From Pisciglobus halotolerans (GTDB lineage Bacteria > Bacillota > Bacilli > Lactobacillales > Carnobacteriaceae): a DNA stretch of 64,000 nt. The notes beneath the pieces were generated by a model. That model was not told the DNA's origin. It was given only the letters and a program-made list of their open reading frames with translations, and ran no database searches. Positions 15,033 through 32,504 of this stretch are shown piece by piece; position 1 is the stretch's first letter; each line of letters starts with the position of its first letter. The DNA lies in NCBI RefSeq assembly GCF_900113675.1, contig NZ_FOQE01000002.1:62001-126000 (forward strand). Reading direction: 5' to 3'. A program made the translations under genes and the position numbers.

Positions 15033-15044
15033 GTGTGCTTTGAA

Positions 15045-15430
15045 AGTTCTATAAATAATGCTTGCTGAATAAAGAAAAAATGTACTGCTGTCAATGTTTT
15101 CAGCTACTTTATTTGGTAGTAACTGCAAGCTTTTAGAGCGATTTGCACAAAAACCTTGCAGTTTTGAAGTGATTCAGTCCCAACGTGATAGGAACCAAGC
15201 AAGACCGAGAACGAATTAGCCTTTGTTGCAATTCGAAACGAATACTTACAAAGGCTTTAAGGTCGAGCTTGAGGAGACTGCTGGCTCCTCAAGTTTGTCT
15301 GGTTCCCTTCACGCCTTGGGACTGAAAAAGCGGGAATAACTGCATGGTCTATTATTTAGCAGCCATTAAATAGGATTCTAACGGGTTTAGCATTAATTTT
15401 TTGCTGACCAACGTTAAATATTATAGAACC
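15045..15430 (-). mobile_element. MITE-like element A (one end shared with elements B and C, different core)
   Basis: Read on the minus strand from 15430, the first 65 bases or so (GGTTCTATAATATTTAACG, then AATGCTAA, CGTTAGAATCCTATTT) match the left end of the elements at 27677 and 32225. The other end starts AGTTCTATAAATA at 15045 and is a weaker inverted copy. The interior is unrelated: a 9-bp hairpin (15121-15163) and a branched structure with outer stem TTCAGTCCCAA / TTGGGACTGAA (15173-15326). That structure encloses AGCCTTTGT/ACAAAGGCT (15218-15256) and CTTGAGGAG/CTCCTCAAG (15268-15293). No reading frame is present. I see no target duplication, and the left boundary is uncertain. Confidence 0.6.
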
Positions 15431-27676: not shown

Positions 27677-27956
27677 GGTTCTACAATATTTAACGTTGAT
27701 CTGTAAAAATCAATTTTTTAATGCTAAGCTCGTTAGAATCCTATTTCTAGAAATTTCAGGAGGCGCATAGGGCTACTGATAGCCATGAAAAAAGATGCAA
27801 TGTGAATTACTTAGTGTTAAGCTTTAGCCGTTACACTAAGTTTGAAGCTTGCAAGCATTGAGAGGCGATTTTCGGCTCAATGTGTTCTCATGGCTTTCCA
27901 TCAGTAGCCCATCGACCATAGAAAATTTCTTTACCAACGTTAAAAGAGGAAGAACC
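27677..27956 (+). mobile_element. MITE-like element B, 280 bp
   Basis: It begins GGTTCTACAATATTTAACG and ends AACGTTAAAAGAGGAAGAACC minus one base; the outer GGTTCT/AGAACC are inverted. The flanking 8-mers ACTTTTTT (27669-27676) and TCTTTTTT (27957-27964) match at 7 of 8 places, compatible with an 8-bp target duplication. Inside, GGGCTACTGAT-AGCCATGA (27770-27788) pairs with TCATGGCT-ttcc-ATCAGTAGCCC (27888-27910), enclosing ACTTAGTGT/ACACTAAGT (27809-27841) and CATTGAG/CTCAATG (27856-27882). There is no reading frame of note. It differs from element C at only about a dozen positions by eye. The rest of the gap 27425-27676 shows nothing recognisable. Confidence 0.85.
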
Positions 27957-27975
27957 TCTTTTTTATGCAGACAAA

Positions 27976-32224: not shown

Positions 32225-32504
32225 GGTTCTACAATATTTAACGTTGGTCTGTAAAAAAGCAATTTTTTTAATGCTAAGCTCGTTAGATCCTATTTCTAGA
32301 AATTTCAGGAGGCGCATAGGGCTACTGATAGCCATGAAAAAAGATGCAATGTGAATCACTTAGTGTTAGGCTTTAGCCGTTACACTAAGTTTGAAGCTTG
32401 CAAGCATTGAGACGCGATTTTCGACTCAATGTGTTCTCATGGCTTTCCATCAGTAGCCCATCGACCGTAGGAAATTTCTTTACCAAAGTTAAAGAGGAAG
32501 AACC
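32225..32504 (+). mobile_element. MITE-like element C, 280 bp, with 8-bp target duplication
   Basis: Same orientation, ends and internal fold as element B, about 95% identical by eye. The flanks are ACTATCCG (32217-32224) and ACTATCTG (32505-32512), a 7-of-8 match that looks like a target-site duplication. On the minus strand the sequence after the element reads as a short C-terminal-like coding tail (DSKPAYEQYNQFLQQLMKMH then stop at about 32166), so it may have landed in an old gene. The 32513-32699 stretch holds no gene I can support. Confidence 0.9.

Follow-up and report, generated by a model that had tools for sequence, protein, structure and literature searches.

Three short elements in the window (the whole 64-kb stretch analysed here, C43:62001-126000 of the 2.44-Mb draft genome G000) have one end in common, and the locus raises the question of how element A came to share that end with elements B and C around a core that looks so different, and for what purpose any of these cores should fold. 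Our overall account, which we regard as probable, is that these are ISL3-moved MITEs with a conserved RNA module, A being a nested chimera.

Shared ends and mobilisation of the elements

Read on the minus strand from 15430, the first 63 bp of A (15368..15430) align with the left ends of B and C, in good agreement with the homology of about 65 bp given in the preliminary description; the outer 24 bp, GGTTCTATAATATTTAACGTTGGT, form the terminal inverted repeat and can be compared with ISL3 ends in related genomes (GGTTCTATAATATTTAGTGTTGGT). The sequence GGTTCTATAATATTTAACG has three copies within the 64-kb window against 0.02 expected, and more than 30 further places in the genome match the shared left end of A at 79-86% identity. 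With counts of family copies in this genome taken as lower bounds, the left-end repeat pattern has at least 91 occurrences (0 for the reversed control) and the right-end pattern at least 80. Once the ends are paired, the elements fall into size classes of 66, 99-100, 135-139, 202, 277-288 and 451 bp, and most paired-end elements are flanked by an exact 8-bp duplication of AT-rich sequence; target duplications are perfect over 8 bp in 40 of the 61 size-resolved copies of this genome, and match at seven or more of the eight positions in 48 of the 61, where 3.8 would be expected. The targets of A/B/C-type elements are AT-rich and mostly intergenic. Full B-type copies, at about 280 bp, are represented by at least 44 distinct sequences in the genome and are too short for a transposase gene. 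A, B and C are non-autonomous transposons (MITEs), and they share their ends because all three are MITEs. The numerous copies with target duplications uphold the modular mobile family that had been proposed, and they speak against the shared end being a common promoter or terminator sequence with no other copies.

Element B (27677..27956, plus strand) is a full MITE of 280 bp with ends GGTTCTACAATATTTAACGTTG and GGTTCTTCCTCTTTTAACGTTGGT, and its flanking 8-mers, ACTTTTTT / TCTTTTTT, are of the acttttttt type and 7/8 identical; element C (32225..32504, plus strand), also a full MITE of 280 bp, lies between actatccg and actatctg (7/8). The right end of B together with the downstream T-run (27940-27968) could fold as a small terminator-like hairpin (GAGGAAGAACCTCTTTTTT), which is not found in C. 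A search for sigma-70-like promoters inside the elements found none around B, and the sites near A fall outside A. The smaller size forms seem to have arisen by deletion: the one of 137 bp retains one arm of the outer stem of B, and the 202- and 100-bp forms show a deletion between short direct repeats. In one 137-bp MITE, L029 (G000:C45:50979-51115), a segment of about 21 bp between two GAAATTTC repeats is inverted relative to other copies, a sign that inversion may have taken place locally, at the palindromic repeats.

In related genomes, insertion sequences of the ISL3 family are bordered by 8-bp duplications and terminate in, for example, GGCTCTATAATATTTAGTGTTGGT / GGCTCTTTGACAAGTAGTGTTGGT, GGTTGTACAATATTTGACGTTGGTGAG / GGTTCTACGTCAACTGACGTTGGTAAAG and GGCTGTATAATTTTTGGTGTGGATG / GGCTCTACGTCAAATGGTGTGGATG; their left ends are identical to the element left ends at 21-22 of 24 positions, the latter being the counterpart of the IS end that lies upstream of the transposase gene. 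The ends also vary together by lineage: the ISL3 element of G010 has GGCTGTATAATTTTTGGTGTGGATG / GGCTCTACGTCAAATGGTGTGGATG and the RNA element L198, from the same genus (G015), has GGCTGTATAATTTTTGGTGTGGAT / GGTTCTAGGTCAAATG; structured elements of genus g3 have ends of the GGCTGTATAATTTTTGGTGTGGATG / GGCTCTACGTCAAATGGTGTGGATG type, and those of G008 and of this genome are nearer to the GGTTGTACAATATTTGACGTTGGTGAG / GGTTCTACGTCAACTGACGTTGGTAAAG type. Copies of the RNA element in other lineages are bordered by duplications as well, matching 8/8 in G015 and G016 and 7/8 in G009, G010 and G013. It is very probable that ISL3 transposases mobilise A/B/C-type elements in trans. A search of the draft genome for an autonomous ISL3 with exactly the element ends found none; the ISL3 element of the genome itself was rejected as the exact parent, since its ends differ (GGCTCTTTGACAAGTAGTGTTGGT), and the idea that the solo ends at C36 and C64 belong to autonomous elements interrupted by contig breaks was likewise dropped, given that rRNA/tRNA genes and an IS30-like fragment are found there.

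The left ends of ISL3 and of the RNA elements have TATAAT/TACAAT at positions 6-11, and the right ends of several lineages have TTGAC. A circle-junction promoter arrangement of the TTGAC/TATAAT type is used by other copy-out insertion sequences, and the end motifs could possibly build such a promoter on the circle junction; this idea is weakened because TTGAC is absent from the right end of B.

Fold of the module and the form under selection

The cores of B (27769..27910, plus strand; 148.7 bits, with covariation) and C (32318..32459, plus strand; 151.5 bits), scored with R1, a covariance model trained on 54 cores, have a three-way-junction, cloverleaf-like fold. The consensus from the 54-core alignment has 46 pairs, distributed over an outer stem P1, a 3-bp stem, a 5-bp stem bearing hairpin H1, and hairpin H2, and the junction contains nearly invariant GAATTA, UUUGA and GAGAC segments; the core of B was found in 11 of 18 genomes of the family at 70-85% identity. 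Among the 54 cores 94.3% of cells pair, compared with 30-43% in slid control versions. Compensatory changes affecting both sides are present in 29 of the 46 pairs, and the number of double-changed cells is 273, against 82.1 (sd 7.5) in shuffles. When the P1 arms of 28 copies, most of them from other genera, were paired with their own partners the average was -20.9 kcal/mol, and with the partners of others -9.6 kcal/mol. A fitted cross-family alignment, which is biased towards structure and includes two reverse-strand matches, agrees. The long stem enclosing two hairpins that had been described for A was confirmed, its sequence folding far better than shuffles (z -7.9; for B, z -6.1), and the suspicion that the fold matters is strengthened by a covariation signal far above both shuffles and slid controls. 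Selection on the fold is supported.

The preliminary description had left a structured RNA and a cruciform side by side. In changes inferred on the tree of the 54 cores, the inner helices went to G-U 49 times and to A-C 22 times on the sense strand, and transitions at unpaired sites were balanced (60 vs 63). Because G-U exceeds A-C on one strand of the inner helices, the data favour a single strand, either RNA or single-stranded DNA, over the cruciform as the selected form; the outer stem P1, with 19 G-U against 17 A-C, has no strand bias. We consider RNA, and not DNA, to be the likely selected form. That the fold would be selected as DNA, as a cruciform or single-stranded hairpin used for excision or target capture and never as RNA, is consistent with the mobility of the elements, with a structure that is strong on both strands and with the unbiased P1, and a single-stranded DNA hairpin could equally yield the bias of the inner helices; a double-stranded cruciform, however, predicts equal G-T and A-C, the conserved unpaired motifs appear RNA-like, and ISL3 DDE transposases are not known to require internal hairpins, all of which we count against a DNA fold and which leaves it an unlikely explanation.

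Distribution, placement and proposed role of the module

R1 has matches in 41 of 395 Lactobacillales genomes, representing 22 of 80 genera and six families, and carrier genomes often have at least eight copies of the module; carriers include Desemzia, Enterococcus rivorum, 'Candidatus Tetragenococcus pullicola' and Aerococcus tenax. With the same model, none was found in the sampled genomes of other orders of the class. Phage, plasmid and viral-contig sequences gave no matches outside a single Aerococcus tenax record, in which there are nine, and an origin in any of these was rejected since the matches are confined to that record. The record itself (CP127381.1, 591,691 bp, 'plasmid unnamed1', L336) contains rpoC and a ribonucleotide reductase gene along with the nine module copies, and looks like part of the chromosome rather than a plasmid.

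Beside the core in other families, for example in E. rivorum, where the copies terminate in other motifs, no ISL3-type ends were seen, and most of the module copies inspected outside the family of the window have different flanks with no visible ISL3-type ends. ISL3 is therefore probably not the sole carrier of the module.

Within this genome the picture differs from that given by the long-term covariation. Across 44 copies, divergence is 3.1% at paired and 2.6% at unpaired sites, and there are 40 G-U against 37 A-C; because paired and unpaired sites diverge alike and G-U is about as frequent as A-C, individual copies in this genome seem to decay neutrally, without being maintained for the sake of their fold. 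Within the genome the ends have nevertheless diverged further (4.6-5.0%) than the core (2.9%), and a degree of selection on copies is conceivable. By approximate, ORF-based assignment, copies lie mostly downstream of genes or at convergent sites, with one divergent case, and in 23 of 31 cases the sense strand of the RNA has the direction of the upstream gene, a mild bias on the same approximate basis. The neighbouring genes are mixed and both orientations occur, so that there is no riboswitch-like fixed position before one class of gene.

From the neutral decay of copies, the long-term covariation and the presence of the module on more than one transposon background, we infer, at roughly even chances, that the module serves the mobile element and not the host or the insertion site. 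A role in mobilisation is a tentative first guess at its activity. In the mechanism that we propose, ISL3-family DDE transposases would recognise the GGTTCT...GTTGGT ends and move A/B/C-type elements in trans, duplicating 8 bp of an AT-rich and mostly intergenic target, and each element would carry the module as an outer stem, a short covarying stem and two hairpins round a junction. The module would most likely be read as RNA on the sense strand, in the same orientation as the transposase gene of the related IS, with putative transcription from a circle-junction promoter (TTGAC in the right end, TATAAT/TACAAT in the left end), and would be retained by helping the element to multiply or persist, not by serving neighbour genes. 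A more specific form of this proposal, in which a transposon-borne RNA has a fold needed for propagation by DDE transposases and has moved between unrelated ends as a selfish RNA module on several transposon types, is speculative and somewhat improbable.

Alternatively, the module could be a trans-acting or cis-regulatory RNA useful to the host and spread by transposons, with redundancy masking selection on single copies. Its deep conservation, which spans 22 genera and several kinds of flanking sequence, the lower divergence of the core within the genome and the tendency of its sense to follow the upstream gene would all suit such an RNA; we nonetheless doubt it, given that neighbour genes differ and both orientations occur, that 354 of the 395 sampled genomes of the order are without a match, and that copies of one genome show no G-U bias. 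A fold that renders insertions harmless in transcripts, by stabilising or insulating 3' ends, so that structured elements are tolerated, would fit with the concentration of copies at convergent or downstream sites (one divergent) and with T-rich duplications that look like terminator tails, but an effect per insertion would preserve pairing, which the copies do not keep, and the preference for AT-rich targets accounts for their placement; we consider this explanation quite unlikely.

Element A and its comparison with known repeats

Element A (15042..15430, minus strand) is a truncated composite MITE whose left end is at 15430 and whose right ~57 bp are lost, as seen in an alignment to an intact 451-bp copy. 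This copy (G000:C39:60674-61124) is the sole close relative of the entire A and has both ends and an exact 8-bp duplication, gaataaaa; by the same alignment, the right end of A in the window is gone and the element adjoins the glmS terminator. A boundary of A at 15045 could not be maintained, as the C39 relative reaches both ends and in the window the right one is missing. The sequence AGTTCTATAAAT at 15045 was rejected as a terminal inverted repeat of A: it equals internal MITE sequence, and the empty site, GAAATTTCTATAAATAGGATTC, occurs elsewhere in the genome, in 137-bp MITEs. The insertion is an element of 309 bp, X (15058..15366, plus strand), with imperfect terminal inverted repeats ATGCTTGCTGAATAA / ATGGCTGCTAAATAA (12/15), and is flanked by the direct repeat TAAATA on the left (15052..15057; empty site in L103 and L018) and on the right (15367..15372). 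A is X, a second element, nested inside a MITE that subsequently lost one end; in the proposed sequence of events, X would have brought an inverted, divergent module into the MITE before that loss.

Older X-like copies without MITE ends are found elsewhere in the genome, several of them internally rearranged, and around the one older copy checked there is no clear target duplication. One X copy, L003 (G000:C51:20751-21054), lies within an operon between genes reading as sufU and sufB, its RNA sense strand being antisense to the operon. The X-like copies L010 (G000:C46:77619 region) and L006 (G000:C51:1340 region) harbour tandem arrays of a ~52-bp unit (GAACGAGTTGAAGCTTTTACACTCTGAACTTGATCACAGCAGCCTAGTCTGT), and structured repeats seem to grow inside X-like elements; another, L008 (G000:C73:51433 region), is followed by a fragment reading like a piece of an IS200/IS605 TnpB gene.

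The structured core of A (15176..15322) is on the plus strand, opposite to the shared end, and scores 29.7 bits with R1 (E 2.9e-6, cmsearch), where the cores of B and C reach ~150 bits. The same core is present in L001-L003, with R1 scores of 37.5 bits for L003 and 35.1 bits for L002, the C39 copy; a sequence-only model did not detect the core of A or these relatives. A 14-nt hairpin of the RNA family, GAGACTACAGGCTC, which only 11 of 336 fetched loci have, is present in the C39 and L003 copies, and GAATTA precedes H1 in X copies. Most probably, the core of A is related to the module of B, though inverted and very far diverged, and was brought by the nested X; this membership rests on a structure-aware score and short motifs. 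The cores had been described as unrelated in sequence, which is true of simple sequence comparison and fails with a model of sequence plus structure, and the R1 match on the plus strand speaks against the replacement of the core in A by an unrelated one. That the core of A is unrelated and its three-way shape convergent, perhaps as in streptococcal BOX, is highly improbable: the sequence-only model does miss A, and BOX has a similar gross shape with no detectable relationship, but the covariance-model E-values run from 3e-6 to 1e-8 and GAGACTACAGGCTC and GAATTA stand at the expected places in X copies.

In the Rfam comparison that had been proposed, none of the cores tested matched Rfam 15, permissive thresholds included, and the module adds to Lactobacillales annotation an RNA family that Rfam 15 lacks. 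Candidate RNAs of Lactobacillales in Rfam (Lacto-int, GOLLD, ROOL) are structured and from the same order, with no Rfam 15 match to the present cores. No description of the element was found in the literature, in which subscription papers were covered to a limited extent. Correia/NEMIS and ERIC are known from Proteobacteria. They are palindromic, probably mobile repeats with reported effects on transcripts (PMC3049150), and it is by this description, palindromic and probably mobile, that they can be likened to the present module. The BOX elements of Streptococcus are, like the present elements, small, intergenic, modular, probably mobile and present in many copies (PMC3049150). BOX shares with our module the gross shape of an outer stem around two hairpins, and differs in distribution and conserved motifs; BOX as the same family was rejected, since R1 detected none of 12 BOX loci (best 6.5 bits, unfiltered), and a BOX query (boxA/boxB/boxC modules) had no match in any genome of the family of the window. 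Structured repeats of the BOX and ERIC kind were described decades ago, with no clear explanation of why they fold, and the combination of compensatory change across genera, apparently more than one transposon background and neutral decay separates selection on a mobile lineage from selection at host loci. With ISL3 insertion sequences and their derived MITEs the present elements have in common the GG(T/C)TCT...GTTGGT ends, the 8-bp AT-rich duplications and the orientation of left and right ends; they differ in lacking a transposase gene and in an interior that is a conserved structured module and not leftover IS sequence.
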